64,000 bases of DNA from Terriglobia bacterium (GCA_020073165.1 JAIQFP010000021.1:1-64000), one strand, 5' to 3'; shown: positions 3,685 through 26,245, counted from the stretch's first letter. Made by a program: numbers and translations. The notes: generated by a model not told the origin, from the sequence alone.

Positions 3685-6600
3685 ATGTCGGCCAAATGCC
3701 CTCGATGTCATTCCGACCTGGCCCCCGGTTCGCAGTTTTGCGATGTGTGCGCCACAAGAACGGAGGCTGACGACCCAGTCTCTGCTTCTCGTACTGTGAG
3801 TATCTCCGAACCCCCGGGAGAATTGCACCTCGGAGCCACGCTTAAGGGCAAGTACCGAATTACCGGAGAAATCGGCCGCGGAGGGATGGGGGTCGTCTAC
3901 AAAGCGGAGGACATTCGACTCAAGAGAACGGTCGCCCTCAAGTTCATCACTTCGCCATCAGCCATGAGTTGGGAGGCTCGTGAACGCTTCCTCCACGAGG
4001 CCCAAGCCGTCTCCGAGCTGGATCATCCCAATATCTGCACTGTCCACGAGTTCGACCAGACCGAAGCCGGGCAAATGTACATTGTCATGGCCTTCTACGG
4101 CGGGCAGTCCCTGAAGAACAAGATCAAGCGAGGCCCTCTCGCAGTCGAAGAGGCGGTCGAAACCACGCTCCAGGTGGCGCGAGGTTTGGAGAAGGCTCAC
4201 CACCGAGGGGTGATTCACCGGGACATCAAACCTGCCAATATCCTTATTACTGAAGACGGCATCGTCAAAATCGTGGACTTCGGACTGGCAAAGCTGGCCG
4301 GGGCGACGCACGTGACCAGAACCGGAAGCACCATGGGAACGGTCGCCTACATGTCTCCGGAGCAGGCCCGGGGGGACAGGGTTGACCATCGCACCGACCT
4401 GTGGTCGCTGGGAGTGGTCTTGTATGAAATGTTGACTGGCAAGTTGCCCTTCAAAGGAGAGCACGACGCCGCGCTGCTCTACTCCGTCATCCATGACCGA
4501 CCACACCGCCTCAAGACTGTGAAACCCGATGTCCCTCCCGAGTTGGAGCGGATCGTCTATCGTGCTTTAGAGAAGAAGCCAGAATCCCGCTACTCCTCCG
4601 CGGAGGAGATGCTGGAAGATCTGAAGAGATATCAAGACAATCTTCGAATCGCTGAAGCCAGGCCGTTCAATCTCGGATTACTTCTGCAACGGGCCCGAGC
4701 CCCCCGGGTTGCGATTCCGGGTTTGATCTTTCTTCTTGCTGTGGGCTTCCTCAGCTACTGGTTCCTGCGCCGCCAGGCCAACCTCCGCTGGGCGAGGGAA
4801 GAAGCGCTACCCGAGATTGCGCGACTTGTGGGGAAAAACGATGTCTGGCGAAACTTGAATGACGCTTACAAGCTTGCAGAAAGAGCGGAAGCATACATTC
4901 CGGGCGACCCCAGGCTGGCCGAACTCTTCGCAAAATGCTCTTTCAACATCAACATCAGGACAGAGCCTCCAGGAGCAAGAATCTATTTCAAGGAGTACAA
5001 GGATCCGGATAGTGAATGGAAATACCTCGGTGTCTCGCCTCTCGAAAACATCCGCGTGCCGATTGGGATCTTCCGGTGGAAGATGGAAAAAGAAGGCTAT
5101 GAGACCGTTCTGGCCGCATCTTCTACGTGGGATGTCGCCGTTTCCGCCAACAATGTGCTCATTCCCTACAGCCTGGGGAGAGTGCTGGACAAGAAAGGTA
5201 GCGTTCCGCCGGACATGGTGCGGGTAGCGGGAGCGAAAACCGACATAGGCGAATTGGGTGATTTTTATATAGACAAATATGAGGTAACGAACAAACAGTA
5301 CAAAGCATTCATAGACAGCGGTGGGTATAGGGACAAGAAATACTGGAAGCATCAATTTCTCGATGACGGCAAGCCCCTGACACGGGAGAAGGCCATGGCC
5401 AGGTTTGTCGATCAAACGGGCAGGCCTGGCCCGGCCACCTGGCAGGCAGGAGATTATCCCGGGGGACAGGGCGATTTCCCGGTATCAGGCGTCAGTTGGT
5501 ACGAAGCAGCGGCGTACGCGGAATTTGTCGGAAAGAGCCTGCCCACAGGACGGCATTGGGGTATGGCAAGGGGTGAATATACGCCGCTGATTCAGGTCCC
5601 GCAGTTGGGAGGGTACGCCGTCTTTGCCCCCTTCAGCAATTTCCGCGGCAAGGGCCCGCTTGCGGTCGGGAGCCTTCCAGGCATCACCTCCTATGGCGCT
5701 TTTGACATGGCCGGGAACGTAAGGGAGTGGAACTGGAATGAAACCCCGAAGGGAAGATTGATCCGGGGTGGCGCCTGGGACGATAACACTTACCTGTTCG
5801 TCAGTTTGAGTCAGGCTCCTCCCATGGACCGTTCTCCGAAGAATGGGTTTCGCTGCGCCCTTTATCCCGATCGGGAGAAGATACTCGAGGCGGCATTCCA
5901 AGAACAGGGCCTTCCCTCTGCCAGCCAAGTTGCAGACCTGTACAAAGAAAAGCCAGTGGCGGATTCGGTCTTCCAGGCTTACCGGGAGCAATTTTCCTAC
6001 GACAAGACGGATCTGAGGGCGCGCGTCGAATCCACGCAAGAAAACTCGGAGGGCTGGATCCAGGAGAAAGTAACCTTTGATGCCGCTTATGGCGGCGAGC
6101 GGGTGATTGCCTACCTGTTTCTTCCCAGGAACACCGCTCCCCCGTACCAAACCGTCATCTATTTTCCCGGCGGTGCATCGGTGTACCAAAGATCGAGCAA
6201 CGATCTTGAAAACTACTATGAATTTCCGATTTTTCTTTCCTATCTCGTCAAGAACGGCCGGGCGGTTCTTTATCCCGTTTATAAGGGGACCTTCGAGCGC
6301 GGGAGCGATCGCTTGGCTGCCCTCCTTGAAGGCACTGGGAATCCTCATCAAGCCGCGGAATTGCTGGTGCAGGAGGTCAAGGATTTCCGCAGGTGCATTG
6401 ACTATCTGGAAACCCGGCAGGACATTGATAGCAAGAGGCTCGCATACTACGGAATGAGCTGGGGCGGGGACTTGGGAGCCATCATTCCCGCTGTGGAGGA
6501 ACGTCTCAAGGCCAGTGTCTTGGTGGGAGGGAGCATCTCAGGTTCCCAACGTCCTGAAGTCAGTGCAATCAACTACGTAACCCGGGTGAAGATACCGACC

Positions 6601-6792
6601 CTGATGCTAAACGGGAAATACGATACGCTGAATCCTCCCGAGACAACCATTCAGCCAATGTATGACCGCCTGGGAACCTCGGTCCCGGACAAACAGCTAA
6701 AGTTCTACGAGACGGACCATATCCCGCCCAGAAACGAATTCATCAAGGAGACTCTAGCCTGGCTCGACCGCTACCTGGGCCCGGTCAAATGA
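3685..6792 (+). CDS. Membrane serine/threonine kinase fused to PEGA, FGE-sulfatase-like and α/β-hydrolase domains
   Basis: A 1,035-residue multidomain protein. Residues 5-22 form a CxxC…CxxC zinc ribbon. A Hanks-type kinase follows: glycine loop GRGGMGVVY (64-72), Lys86 in VALKF, catalytic Asp180 in HRDIKPAN, Asp198 in DFG, and PEQARG. A single transmembrane helix lies at about 343-362. Outside the membrane are a PEGA-like β domain (about 420-490) and a formylglycine-generating-enzyme/SUMF1-like domain (about 510-722, with EVTNKQYKAF, AGNVREW, IRGGAWDD and NGFRCA). Last comes a dienelactone-hydrolase/prolyl-oligopeptidase-type hydrolase with Ser925 in GMSWGG, Asp980 and His1012, a complete triad. 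The start is fixed by GGAGGTGAT just before ATG 3685. It is likely a transmembrane signalling enzyme; the target is unknown. Confidence 0.9.
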   Translation: MSAKCPRCHSDLAPGSQFCDVCATRTEADDPVSASRTVSISEPPGELHLGATLKGKYRITGEIGRGGMGVVYKAEDIRLKRTVALKFITSPSAMSWEARERFLHEAQAVSELDHPNICTVHEFDQTEAGQMYIVMAFYGGQSLKNKIKRGPLAVEEAVETTLQVARGLEKAHHRGVIHRDIKPANILITEDGIVKIVDFGLAKLAGATHVTRTGSTMGTVAYMSPEQARGDRVDHRTDLWSLGVVLYEMLTGKLPFKGEHDAALLYSVIHDRPHRLKTVKPDVPPELERIVYRALEKKPESRYSSAEEMLEDLKRYQDNLRIAEARPFNLGLLLQRARAPRVAIPGLIFLLAVGFLSYWFLRRQANLRWAREEALPEIARLVGKNDVWRNLNDAYKLAERAEAYIPGDPRLAELFAKCSFNINIRTEPPGARIYFKEYKDPDSEWKYLGVSPLENIRVPIGIFRWKMEKEGYETVLAASSTWDVAVSANNVLIPYSLGRVLDKKGSVPPDMVRVAGAKTDIGELGDFYIDKYEVTNKQYKAFIDSGGYRDKKYWKHQFLDDGKPLTREKAMARFVDQTGRPGPATWQAGDYPGGQGDFPVSGVSWYEAAAYAEFVGKSLPTGRHWGMARGEYTPLIQVPQLGGYAVFAPFSNFRGKGPLAVGSLPGITSYGAFDMAGNVREWNWNETPKGRLIRGGAWDDNTYLFVSLSQAPPMDRSPKNGFRCALYPDREKILEAAFQEQGLPSASQVADLYKEKPVADSVFQAYREQFSYDKTDLRARVESTQENSEGWIQEKVTFDAAYGGERVIAYLFLPRNTAPPYQTVIYFPGGASVYQRSSNDLENYYEFPIFLSYLVKNGRAVLYPVYKGTFERGSDRLAALLEGTGNPHQAAELLVQEVKDFRRCIDYLETRQDIDSKRLAYYGMSWGGDLGAIIPAVEERLKASVLVGGSISGSQRPEVSAINYVTRVKIPTLMLNGKYDTLNPPETTIQPMYDRLGTSVPDKQLKFYETDHIPPRNEFIKETLAWLDRYLGPVK

Positions 6793-22867: not shown

Positions 22868-22902
22868 CTGGCCGCCAATTCTCAATGAGTGTAATCGCCT
22901 GA
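22868..22902 (-). repeat. Dispersed intergenic repeat, copy 3 (interrupted by the transposon)
   Basis: On the minus strand GCGATTACACTCATTGAG matches copy 2 (ATTACACTCATTGA identical). The rest of the copy continues on the other side of the transposon at 24,882-24,905, so the insertion lies inside the repeat. Confidence 0.55.
22895..22902. repeat. Left 8-bp target site duplication
   Basis: TCGCCTGA, identical to 24,874-24,881, directly abuts the left terminal inverted repeat. Confidence 0.9.
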
Positions 22903-22926
22903 CATGATTATTCACTTGACAAAAGT
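22903..22926 (+). repeat. Left terminal inverted repeat (IRL)
   Basis: Begins CATGATTATTCACTT and ends ACAAAAGT. It matches the reverse complement of 24,850-24,873 at 22 of 24 positions. Confidence 0.92.
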
Positions 22927-23103
22927 AACCCCATGATTCATAATCCTACCCATGAAGTTAAGTCTCACTTCTTCTTGGGTTTGGCGGCAGAAGCAGACGC
23001 CCGCAACTGTCTCCGCAAGTCCCTTTTTATGGACGCCAACAATCTCCTCGTTGGCACCCGTTGAAGCGTCTCTTTCTTCTCTCTCTCAGATGGAGTACGC
23101 ACC

Positions 23104-24009
23104 ATGACTCTCCCTGATGTAGTTGAACTGTTCGGTACTGATGATAAATGCCGTGAACTGCTTGAACGTCTCCGGTGGCCCGAAGGCCCCGAGTGCCCAC
23201 GTTGCAAGACCCGCGAAGTTGTCCGCCTGTCCACAAACGTAAAACTGCTGTGGTGCGCGGAGTGCGATTACCAGTTCTCTGTTACCGCCGGAACAATCTT
23301 CAACGACTCGCACCTGCCTTTGTCCATGTGGTTCATGGCAACGTTGCTGCTCGTTGAAGCACGCAAGGGCATGAGCGCGAATCAGCTTAGGCGCACGCTT
23401 TGGGGACAGCACAAAGGCTCCTACAAAACGGCCTGGTATCTCTGCCATCGTATTCGTGCTGCCATGAAAGAAGTAGATCGGCCCATGATGGACGGTACTG
23501 TCGAAGTGGACGAAACCTATGTCGGCGGCAGGCCCCCTCGTGGAAGCAAGCCGGGACGTGGCACGCCGAAGGAAGTTGTTATCGGCATCCGACAGCGTGG
23601 CGGGGATCTGCGTTTCTTCCGTGCTTCCGATGCTAGGTCTGGCACCTTGGCGAAGTACATCAGCGAGAACGTCAGTCAAGACGTTGAAGTCGTGGTCACC
23701 GATGAATTCACTTCCTATCCGGGCGCGATGAAGAAAACGGGATTGACCGCAAAGCACAAAACGATCAAACACAAGTCGGGCATCTACGCCGTCGGAGACA
23801 TCCACACGAACACAGTGGAATCCGCGTTCTCTCTGCTCAAGCGGGGCATCGTGGGCACATGGCACAAGATCAGTGCAAAGCATCTCCCGGCCTATTTGGA
23901 CGAGATGACCTTCCGTTTCAACCGTCGGAAGTCTCCCGCCTTGTTCTTGGACACCCTGCGTCATATGATTACTTCTTCCGTTTTGACCTTCGAGAAACTC
24001 ACGGCTTAG
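23104..24009 (+). CDS. IS1595-family (ISXO2-like) transposase
   Basis: A 301-residue DDE transposase. The N-terminal zinc ribbon reads CPRCKT … CAECDYQF (about residues 35-58) and is followed by the helical MWFMATLLLVEARKGMSANQ region. The catalytic core has Asp136 in VEVDETYVGG, Asp200 in VVTDEFTSY and Glu239 in HTNTVESAFSLLKRG, the last being family-typical. It closes with HLPAYLDEMTFRFNRR. All three acidic residues and all four cysteines are present, and the frame is unbroken, so the enzyme should be active. Start ATG 23104 follows a weak ribosome-binding site. The 3' end overlaps the convergent passenger gene by 11 bases. Confidence 0.95.
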   Translation: MTLPDVVELFGTDDKCRELLERLRWPEGPECPRCKTREVVRLSTNVKLLWCAECDYQFSVTAGTIFNDSHLPLSMWFMATLLLVEARKGMSANQLRRTLWGQHKGSYKTAWYLCHRIRAAMKEVDRPMMDGTVEVDETYVGGRPPRGSKPGRGTPKEVVIGIRQRGGDLRFFRASDARSGTLAKYISENVSQDVEVVVTDEFTSYPGAMKKTGLTAKHKTIKHKSGIYAVGDIHTNTVESAFSLLKRGIVGTWHKISAKHLPAYLDEMTFRFNRRKSPALFLDTLRHMITSSVLTFEKLTA

Positions 24010-24736
24010 GAGCCCTCTTGAGCCAGAAATATTTAATAATGTCTTGAAGTTGTGGCTGTCGCGCTTCCCATCCAGCGCCAAAAGAGCTTTCGGTAGACGA
24101 CGGATTGGGGCTTGTAATTACTGCTATTGTTTCGGTGTTTCCTCCAACATTTCCGACTGATTCTTTCGCTTCCTTCATTACAAATTCGAGCAGGGCTTGC
24201 GCTTCAAGTACCTCTGGCACCGTCCCACTGAACTGGGGGCCGCGAGCATCTCTGAAAAGACGGTCAAGGAAGTAGTAGGCGATCTCCTGCCCTACGCCAG
24301 CACACGCAAACATTCCAGCAACCGGATAAACAATTTCTTCATAGGTTTGATACAGGCGACAATCTGTCGTTTGGTAGTCTACGACGCCAATGACGAGTGA
24401 TATTTGCCTATCGAGCCGCTTCCAGTCTGGGAGCGAATCAGGAATGTACTTATCGTAAATTCTAACCATCTCGTCACCGATTATCGTTTCGTGCTTAGCG
24501 AGAAACTCGTTCTTATTAAGCCTTGCTGCATCGGATATTCGCCTCATCGCTAGTTCGCACAATGGTCCAAATCCGGCAGTGCCGAACACCAAATGCCACT
24601 GAGGAAAAGCAGACACGTGAATTAGTTTCTGTACGGTTCTCTTCCCGCCCATTACGGTCCCCTCTTCCGTGTCTGAACAGAAGAAAAGACCGTTTGTGCA
24701 TATCGTGCCAACGACCAACGTCATACGCTTGCTCAT
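23999..24736 (-). CDS. Proteasome-β/HslV-like Ntn-hydrolase carried by the transposon
   Basis: About 245 residues. The segment TLVVGTICTNGLFFCSD aligns with the N-terminus of proteasome β-subunits and HslV: Thr as residue 1, Gly5, and Asp at position 17 counted from that Thr. A Lys follows at position 32 (QKLIHV) near the position of catalytic Lys33, then HLVFGTAGFGPLCELAM, matching the Gly47 region and helix 1. Two in-frame ATGs exist: 24,736 (a site GGAAGCCGAAG upstream) and 24,724, directly before the Thr. Use of the second, with Met removal, would expose Thr1 as in HslV. No partner ATPase or α-subunit is nearby. Protease activity is inferred from motifs only; substrate unknown. Its place inside an intact transposon is unusual. 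Confidence 0.7.
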   Translation of the reverse strand: MSKRMTLVVGTICTNGLFFCSDTEEGTVMGGKRTVQKLIHVSAFPQWHLVFGTAGFGPLCELAMRRISDAARLNKNEFLAKHETIIGDEMVRIYDKYIPDSLPDWKRLDRQISLVIGVVDYQTTDCRLYQTYEEIVYPVAGMFACAGVGQEIAYYFLDRLFRDARGPQFSGTVPEVLEAQALLEFVMKEAKESVGNVGGNTETIAVITSPNPSSTESSFGAGWEARQPQLQDIIKYFWLKRAPKP

Positions 24737-24849
24737 CTTCGGCTTCCGCTTGGATGTGAGCGGGTCCGGTTTTCTGGGTTCCGGCACCCAATCAACTCTC
24801 AATCGGCACCGCCTTTCGGGTGCCTAGGCCCACCCTGCGCCAAAATGGG

Positions 24850-24873
24850 ACTTTTGTAAAGTGAATAATCCTG
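24850..24873 (-). repeat. Right terminal inverted repeat (IRR)
   Basis: Its reverse complement begins CAGGATTATTCACTT and ends ACAAAAGT, pairing with IRL at 22,903-22,926. Confidence 0.92.
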
Positions 24874-24881
24874 TCGCCTGA
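24874..24881. repeat. Right 8-bp target site duplication
   Basis: TCGCCTGA, identical to 22,895-22,902, directly after IRR. Confidence 0.9.
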
Positions 24882-25051
24882 TTACGTCAACAATCAACAA
24901 AGACCTCAGTTTTCCTGAAGAAAGATCTGAATCCGGATTTCGCCCTCCCTTCACATCGAACCGTGATGCAGGTCATTGTAGGGCACAGCCAAACCAAGGT
25001 AGTTTCAGCGCGAGGGTTCGAGTCAGCCACGCAAGCCTGGCGGGAGGAACG

Positions 25052-26245
25052 ATGAGAAACGCAAAGCTCGCGCCGTTCAATCGATGGAACCGCCGTCATA
25101 TGGCTGCGCTGTTTATTGTGTTCGTACTCACACTGGGGATGGCGGCGCAGGCGCAAACCTACACAGTACTCCACTCCTTTGCGGGTCCACCTGACGGCAT
25201 AGCTCCATTTGCAGGTGTCACCCGAGACGCAGCCGGCAATCTTTACGGAAACACCGCCGACGGCGGAATGACCGGCAAAAATTGCCAGGGCTACGGGTGC
25301 GGAATGATCTTCAAGCTAGACCAGGCAGGGACAGAAACAGTACTGTACACGTTCACCGGTGGTGCCGACGGCGGGGCACCCTTCGGAAGTTTGATTCGGG
25401 ACGCGGCAGGCAACCTCTACGGCACCACGTCCCTCTCCAGCAGCTTTGGTGCAGTCTTCAAGCTGGATTCGGCGAGCACGTATACGGTGCTATACAGCTT
25501 TACCGGCGGCGCGGATGGCGCAGAACCCGACGAGGGATTAATTCGGGATGCCGCGGGCAACCTCTACGGAGTGACCTTCGGCGGGGGAGATCTGATCTGT
25601 AGCTGCGGTGTAGTCTTCAAGCTGGATTCGGCGGGCACGGAGACGGTGCTGCACAGCTTCACCGGTGGTTCGGATGGCGAAGGTCCTCTTGGACGCCTGC
25701 TCCGGGACGGTTCGGGCAACCTGTACGGGACCACCGGATTTGGCGGGACATATTCTGGCGGGACGATTTTCAAGCTGGATCCAACCGGCACGGAGACGGT
25801 ACTACACAGCTTCAATCCCGCAACGGAGGGCCACGAACCGGCTGGAACGTTGGTCCGGGACGCTGCCGGCAACCTCTACGGCGTAACCCTAACCGGCCCC
25901 GTTCACATATACGGCATGGTGTACAAGCTGGATACGGCCGGCACGTTGACGATCCTGCACAGCTTCTCGGGCAAGAGGGACGGTGAAACTCCCGAGGGAG
26001 GCTTGCTCCGAAGTGCGTCGGGCACCTTATATGGCACTACCGTAAGTGGAGGCAGTCATATGATGGGGACAATTTTCAAGCTGACGCCAGCCGGCAAGTT
26101 CACTTTGCTCTACACTTTCACTGGCGGGTCGGACGGCGGACATCCTGCCGCAGCTTTGATCCCGGACGCCGCGGGAAACCTCTACAGTACGGCAGTGTAC
26201 GGCGGTTACGGCTTTGGAGTGGTGTTCAAGATCGCTTCCCACTGA
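25052..26245 (+). CDS. Secreted HAF-type (Gloeo_Verruco) repeat protein
   Basis: A 397-residue exported protein. Start ATG 25052 has GGGAGGAACG immediately upstream. The signal peptide is long, with a basic lead and a hydrophobic core at about 20-34 ending AQAQ. The mature part is seven copies of a ~52-residue unit: VLYSFTGGADG…, then LIRDAAGNLYGTT, a glycine-rich turn, and a VFKLDSAGTET-type strand. This is the extracellular HAF-family repeat, predicted to form a β-propeller. The function is unknown; such proteins are abundant in Acidobacteria and Verrucomicrobia. It is a single gene, 170 bases past the transposon end. Confidence 0.88.
   Translation: MRNAKLAPFNRWNRRHMAALFIVFVLTLGMAAQAQTYTVLHSFAGPPDGIAPFAGVTRDAAGNLYGNTADGGMTGKNCQGYGCGMIFKLDQAGTETVLYTFTGGADGGAPFGSLIRDAAGNLYGTTSLSSSFGAVFKLDSASTYTVLYSFTGGADGAEPDEGLIRDAAGNLYGVTFGGGDLICSCGVVFKLDSAGTETVLHSFTGGSDGEGPLGRLLRDGSGNLYGTTGFGGTYSGGTIFKLDPTGTETVLHSFNPATEGHEPAGTLVRDAAGNLYGVTLTGPVHIYGMVYKLDTAGTLTILHSFSGKRDGETPEGGLLRSASGTLYGTTVSGGSHMMGTIFKLTPAGKFTLLYTFTGGSDGGHPAAALIPDAAGNLYSTAVYGGYGFGVVFKIASH

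Follow-up and report, generated by a model that had tools for sequence, protein, structure and literature searches.

A predicted proteasome-like Ntn hydrolase as cargo of IS1595 and IS1 insertion sequences in Acidobacteriota

The window analysed here is a 64,000-nucleotide stretch of DNA from a Terriglobia bacterium (GCA_020073165.1 JAIQFP010000021.1:1-64000). It holds an IS1595 element of 1,971 bp at 22903-24873 with a single, convergent cargo gene, and its features are as follows.

22895-22902, no strand: left target-site duplication TCGCCTGA, 8/8 identical to 24874-24881
22903-22926, plus strand: left terminal inverted repeat CATGATTATTCACTTGACAAAAGT, 22/24 against the right repeat; family consensus in 17 other delimited IS1595 elements
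23104-24009, plus strand: IS1595-family DDE transposase, 301 aa, Zn ribbon and DDE domains (PF12762, PF12760, NF033547)
23999-24009, no strand: tail-to-tail overlap of the transposase and cargo 3' ends, 11 bp shared
23999-24724, minus strand: cargo gene, predicted proteasome-like Ntn threonine hydrolase, Met plus 240 aa from the ATG before Thr1 (fold, profile, T1/D17/K32)
24725-24802, minus strand: in-frame Lys/Arg/Pro-rich leader LRVDWVPEPRKPDPLTSKRKPKMSKR with a possible TTG start (open frame; coding signal in relatives)
24850-24873, minus strand: right terminal inverted repeat CAGGATTATTCACTTTACAAAAGT (read on the minus strand), 22/24 against the left repeat
24874-24881, no strand: right target-site duplication TCGCCTGA, 8/8 identical to 22895-22902

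An earlier note on this DNA had described a 1,971-bp element with 24-bp inverted repeats agreeing at 22 of 24 positions, a perfect 8-bp duplication and an unbroken DDE transposase, and all of this was borne out at every coordinate; counting along the intact reading frame confirmed Asp136, Asp200 and Glu239 as the DDE triad. The transposase matches DDE_Tnp_IS1595 (PF12762) with E=2e-31, PF12760 with E=2e-13 and NF033547 with 174.7 bits, where the cut-off is 75. Searched with up to three mismatches, the 22-nt end motif occurs at exactly two sites in the window and at none in 100 dinucleotide shuffles, and shuffling the flanks of the locus left no pair of inverted repeats with a target duplication. 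The element thereby has what defines the IS1595 family, namely a transposase of the type with an N-terminal Zn ribbon, inverted repeats and an 8-bp duplication, and also what defines a transporter IS, in that the hydrolase gene lies between the repeats of an otherwise complete IS. The name transporter IS is in use for insertion sequences that harbour passenger genes (PMC3129680). We consider it very likely that the window element is an intact member of this class within the IS1595 family, with one gene that has no apparent part in transposition placed between the transposase 3' end and the far repeat. The target duplication should be read as a sign of past movement only.

The insertion site itself, obtained by joining 22889-22902 to 24882-24887, is palindromic (GTAATC-GCCT-GATTAC), and over the window and 17 other elements the palindromicity of IS1595 insertion sites averages 0.37 against a background of 0.26 (sd 0.10). 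The elements at L040, L121 and L085 are flanked by short stretches that resemble one another and probably belong to a dispersed repeat. Adjoining the window element, an ORF at 25052-26245 consists of repeated units of the form GNLYGTT..GG..GVVFKLD..GTETVLHSFTGG.DG.

The convergent gene inside the element had been credited with proteasome-β motifs (Thr1, Gly5, Asp17), and we find these in the proteasome-beta register of the reading frame at 23999-24724 on the minus strand, which starts with ATG-Thr and also carries Gly11 and Lys32. Taken alone, the window protein reaches E=0.005 and 16.9 bits against the Pfam Proteasome model PF00227, below the gathering cut-off of 22.4. One relative (L002) clears that cut-off with 26.2 bits, 10 of 13 relatives match the model at E up to 0.1, and a profile built from the 13-member family has as its best match in the PDB the proteasome β subunit of M. 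jannaschii (Methanocaldococcus), with E=6.3e-12. Thr1, Asp17 and Lys32 (equivalent to proteasome Lys33) are identical in 64 of 64 aligned relatives whose overall identity is otherwise about 20%, a set that leaves out L079, in which Ser stands in place of Thr1. It is because these relatives can be added to the evidence of the single protein that we regard its proteasome-like identity as firm. The serine variant is an IS-borne relative at L079:2884-3885 (VSIVAGF).

An AlphaFold2 model made from the window protein and four relatives (pLDDT 72.9, pTM 0.76) has the strand-helix order of a proteasome β subunit; it rests on five sequences, and its poor stretches are residues 21-30, 161-167 and the C-terminus. 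Foldseek places Anbu first for this model (E=1.3e-10, TM 0.68) and 20S subunits next, and VIA-align gives Z 19.8 against the Mtb 20S proteasome (202 residues, 3.5 Å) and 19.6 against Anbu (220 residues, 3.9 Å), scores that amount to a tie. A separate model of the relative L041 gives Z 23.2 against Anbu (217 residues, 3.1 Å). From these models the cargo is predicted to have the proteasome-type αββα Ntn fold, so that the structure prediction proposed in the earlier note returned the expected fold, together with a Thr1 and catalytic Lys that are invariant in 64 relatives. The note's wording, "proteasome/HslV-like", holds in its first half, on fold, profile and catalytic residues, and needs correcting in its second, the protein being nearer to Anbu and 20S subunits: none of the NCBIfam HslV models matches it even with E up to 10 allowed, and no HslU gene was seen adjoining the cargo gene. 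A weak match to an HslV family in PHROGs was obtained with one relative only. Distinct from the cargo gene, a PF00227 gene is present in this genome on contig C7.

Whether the ATG directly before the threonine is where translation begins bears on how the catalytic residue would be exposed. This ATG is present in the window, as had been pointed out, and wherever Thr1 could be assigned in non-Anbu relatives (65 cases), the codon before it is ATG in 44, GTG in 19 and TTG in 2; no other valine codon occurs there, a pattern suggestive of selection to keep a start codon at this position. The cargo frame nevertheless stays open upstream of the ATG as far as a TTG at 24802. Over the 66 nt before Thr1 in 41 IS-borne copies, frame 0 encodes 49% Lys, Arg and Pro and has 4 stops, whereas for the remaining two frames the values are 24% and 17% of these residues, with 34 and 39 stops, and the leader follows a pattern of about M-I-KP-PKP-RLPERK-(M/V)-T. 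Given this coding signal in relatives, the protein is probably produced with the basic, Pro-rich leader attached, perhaps alongside a short version that begins Met-Thr. The ATG ahead of Thr is accordingly one possible start and uncertain as the sole one, since the conserved upstream leader appears to be translated in relatives. Propeptides have been reported only in proteasome β and HslV subunits (Fuchs and colleagues, PMC8665760), so the leader would be a distinguishing feature. By eye, a possible hairpin lies over the ribosome-binding site upstream of Thr1.

Relatives of the cargo are scattered. A search with the window protein through 396 genomes of the phylum found relatives in five further genomes, and profile searches, which covered Acidobacteriota, matched 67 among 398 genomes from the host family (49 of the 256 of high quality). 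A pattern scan of 84,980 genomes returned nothing with the window protein and four acidobacterial loci with a four-member alignment, and no relative was found in collections of plasmids, phages and viral contigs, where the one match, to a phage coat protein at E=0.9, is attributable to chance. For about 70 non-Anbu loci the neighbouring DNA was scanned with transposase profiles. In 46 of 70 the hydrolase gene has an IS1595 or IS1 transposase as its neighbour (L079, L124, L125 and L127 are included in this count), a fraction that is not an unbiased estimate because some IS-borne members went into building the profile; the arrangement is tail-to-tail in 37, usually with no more than 30 bp between the genes. 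As a sample of 12 genomes has 0 to 11 IS1595 transposases per genome, this adjacency cannot be due to chance. None of the 11 Anbu-type loci adjoins an IS1595 or IS1 transposase, although the flanks available there were shorter than for the other loci. For about one third of the family's loci no IS could be recognised alongside, some of these lying at contig ends or having single IS ends. In the window's own genome the cargo gene is single copy.

Both ends and a perfect 8-bp duplication enclosing the two genes could be delimited for 27 elements, of which 18 belong to IS1595 (the window, L040, L044, L045, L079, L085, L088, L089, L095, L098, L099, L104, L110, L112, L121, L124, L127 and L129) and nine to IS1 (L014, L084, L086, L100, L105, L111, L113, L116 and L120). 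The IS1595 ends follow the consensus CAnGATTATTyACTTGACAA, scoring 16-20 of 20 compared with at most 14 in shuffled flanks, and the IS1 ends follow GGTA[GC]TGG(G/C)TCAGTTT, which in L120 reads GGTAGTGTCCTAATTTCG. The L040 element can be inspected in the public record JASIAO010000281.1. Two further loci have lost the transposase and kept the hydrolase: L123, with 18/18 matching repeat positions and a perfect duplication, and L041, with IS1 ends and a duplication of 7/8. The pairing of transposase and hydrolase that the earlier note suggested seeking in other genomes is thus found in most of the loci examined, with 26 complete elements besides that of the window. Its concern that homologues might always lie outside the element is contradicted, as the majority are housed in, or adjacent to, an IS1595 or IS1 element. 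Nor is the window a lone case, the cargo recurring in both families and being exchanged between elements.

IS630 was considered as a third carrier, on account of two loci (L005 and L015) where it stands tail-to-tail with the hydrolase, and was rejected: it is a later insertion into the hydrolase 3' end of a broken IS1595 element. The nested copy occupies L015:about 5680-6790.

The cargo and its vehicle prove to be separable. The window element and L088 have transposases that are 87% identical and hydrolases that are 19% identical, and their similarity at the DNA level extends over 22902-23996 and 24798-24874, leaving the hydrolase gene in between uncovered. Across 17 IS1595 elements median identity is 0.64 for transposases and 0.19 for hydrolases, with no correlation between the two (Mantel r=-0.13, p=0.84), and for the elements overall the median hydrolase identity is 19-22% where the transposases are 64-74% identical. 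Among IS1 elements the two genes do co-diverge to some degree (r=0.46, p=0.002). One pair of these elements has dS of 1.64 for the hydrolases and 0.31 for the transposases, which suggests exchange. In the hydrolase tree, which has no confident root and many long branches, the IS1595 label changes at least 10 times and the IS1 label at least 5 times over well-supported branches, and the hydrolases of L016 (on IS1) and L040 (on IS1595) are sisters with support of 100/97. We conclude from these comparisons that cargo and vehicle evolve separately and that hydrolases have been swapped between elements and between the two IS families. The hydrolase itself is under purifying selection, with dN/dS of 0.09 and 0.15 in the two unsaturated pairs. 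A 2009 paper by Siguier, Gagnevin and Chandler, cited in PMC3129680, reportedly treated IS1595 and its relation to IS1.

The window element shares with other transporter ISs the full set of IS parts (transposase, inverted repeats, 8-bp duplication) and the presence of an additional gene unrelated to transposition; it differs from them in that the cargo is a proteasome-like hydrolase, found as the same family and in the same layout in both IS1595 and IS1. The literature searched contained no paper joining transporter ISs with a cargo of this kind, in keeping with the earlier note's claim that a stand-alone Ntn hydrolase is an undescribed class of IS1595 cargo. To our knowledge, an IS-borne proteasome-like enzyme that is swapped between elements has not been described.

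Among known members of the fold, Anbu (5nyw, 5nyg, 5nyj) resembles the cargo as the best or near-best structural match, with Thr1 directly after the start codon and a helical C-terminus. It differs in sequence (about 15% identity) and in setting, since the cargo is IS-borne and has a basic leader. The Anbu-type loci L034 and L035 have alpha-E-like neighbours (named by eye), whereas the window cargo lies inside an IS and lacks the Anbu-type neighbourhood of alpha-E and transglutaminase-like genes. The tree puts the window protein outside the Anbu-type rows, on the far side of a branch with support of 89/91 that is not starred and that lies among long branches without a confident root. HslV shares the proteasome-beta fold and the Met-Thr start, and is set apart by the want of an HslV model match and of a neighbouring HslU gene noted above.

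The function of prokaryotic proteasome relatives is mostly unknown, and the survey by Fuchs, Alva and Lupas in 2021 added 22 homolog clusters (WPH, PMI-1 to -6, PPH, AAH and others), of which PPH and AAH are phage-associated; it found no genomic context that hints at function, and neither transposons nor acidobacteria are named in its text (PMC8665760). These clusters, like the cargo, are distant proteasome-like proteins with Thr1, Asp17 and Lys33. We regard the elements described here as a new cargo class of transporter IS and as a mobile, hitherto undescribed branch of proteasome-like proteins, having compared them with the 22 clusters (PMI-4, WPH etc.) by published description only, so that overlap is possible. 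For one branch of proteasome-like proteins the context is very strong: insertion sequences carry it, always in the same slot, and different elements hand it on to one another. This context also makes function testable, since moving, deleting or mutating the cargo need not touch the transposase.

As to how the system might work, the transposase would bind both repeats and move the whole unit including the cargo, and the hydrolase would be made as a soluble protein in which Thr1 becomes the free N-terminus. Two routes could expose Thr1, namely initiation at the ATG or GTG before it with subsequent removal of Met by methionine aminopeptidase, or autocatalytic removal of the basic, Pro-rich leader; with Lys and Asp, Thr1 would then cleave amide bonds of a protein substrate, presumably without a dedicated unfoldase. 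The element would keep the gene most likely through a benefit to the cell or to the element, in conflicts or in protein quality control, rather than through an action on its own transposase. The roles put forward in the earlier note (self-defence, toxin-like proteolysis, host benefit) are likewise hypothetical. A bolder reading, less likely than not, is that this is a fast-diversifying, mainly transposon-borne branch of proteasome-like proteins, exchanged between IS1595 and IS1 as a conflict or defence module, in which a Thr1 released from the leader acts on variable foreign protein targets. If this is true, no branch of the proteasome family carried by transposons would have been described before it, and its function would lie outside bulk protein degradation.

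The corresponding proposal for the cargo itself, that it serves defence or counter-competition against proteins of phages, plasmids or rival elements, has a real though less than even chance in our estimation. It is consistent with the fast divergence of the hydrolases relative to the transposases while the catalytic residues stay invariant, with the repeated exchange between elements, with a HicA-type toxin gene beside the hydrolase in one IS1 element, and with a Schlafen/AlbA_2 protein and a PIN plus DUF433 pair in the same kind of element. On the other side, PADLOC assigned none of the five hydrolases scanned, which leaves this role without direct support, no relatives were found in the phage, plasmid and viral collections searched, and fast divergence may have other causes.

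The hydrolase could instead be a housekeeping type of cargo, a stand-alone proteolytic enzyme like Anbu/BPH that clears stress-damaged proteins and spreads by helping its host. The fold and catalytic residues, with Anbu and 20S subunits as the nearest solved structures, would suit such a role, as would the purifying selection, but the sporadic presence (49 of 256 high-quality genomes), a divergence that is unusually extreme for an enzyme of this kind and the lack of any co-occurring unfoldase in what we saw make it rather unlikely.

An enzyme that controls transposition, by degrading or processing its own transposase or a host factor so as to limit copy number, would account for the constant tail-to-tail place beside the transposase in 37 loci and for a low copy number such as the single cargo gene in the window's genome, and the co-divergence within IS1 agrees with it to some extent. 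We nonetheless think it improbable: the absence of co-divergence in IS1595 and the change of IS family within one hydrolase clade (L016 and L040) make the element's own transposase an unlikely substrate, and most of the IS1595 elements delimited in the sampled genomes of the family hold other genes in the cargo slot. That the hydrolase is an accidental hitch-hiker, captured by chance and now decaying, is highly improbable despite some copies that are broken or have nested insertions (L087, L125, L127 and L015), given an active site invariant in 64 of 64 relatives, dN/dS of 0.09-0.15 and 27 complete elements in two IS families.

More broadly, these elements show that a small insertion sequence can serve as the vehicle of a single enzyme, and that acidobacterial IS1595 elements have a slot for cargo in general, in which further undescribed genes may be present.

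Various other genes occupy the cargo region in IS1595 elements of the genomes G257, G571 and G265 (L147-L166); the Schlafen/AlbA_2 protein is the cargo of L154, and by eye HNH-like cargo is present in L153 and L165 and DUF3800-like cargo in L155 and L163. The window's own genome has two more IS1595 elements with a perfect 8-bp duplication, one with a 267-aa orphan protein (L139:1857-4369, on G000 C4) and one with the PIN-like and DUF433 pair (L140:322-3012, on G000 C31). The HicA toxin gene (PF07927, E=1e-7) lies in the hydrolase's IS1 element at L113:5045-5821 and is preceded, by eye, by a HicB-like ORF. Near the transposase-side end inside IS1 elements there is a conserved basic, KGG-rich ORF of about 90-100 aa (MTIGKGKRPRDPNQLAKWIV...RKGGQIGGKRRLKTMT...AAKAARARWKK), which occurs in L014, L084, L100, L105, L111, L113 and L116 and has no Pfam match in its L084 copy. 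Finally, distant Met-Thr proteasome-like genes at L027:988-2235 and L028:932-2274 each directly follow a similar small-protein gene, with which they may form a two-gene unit.
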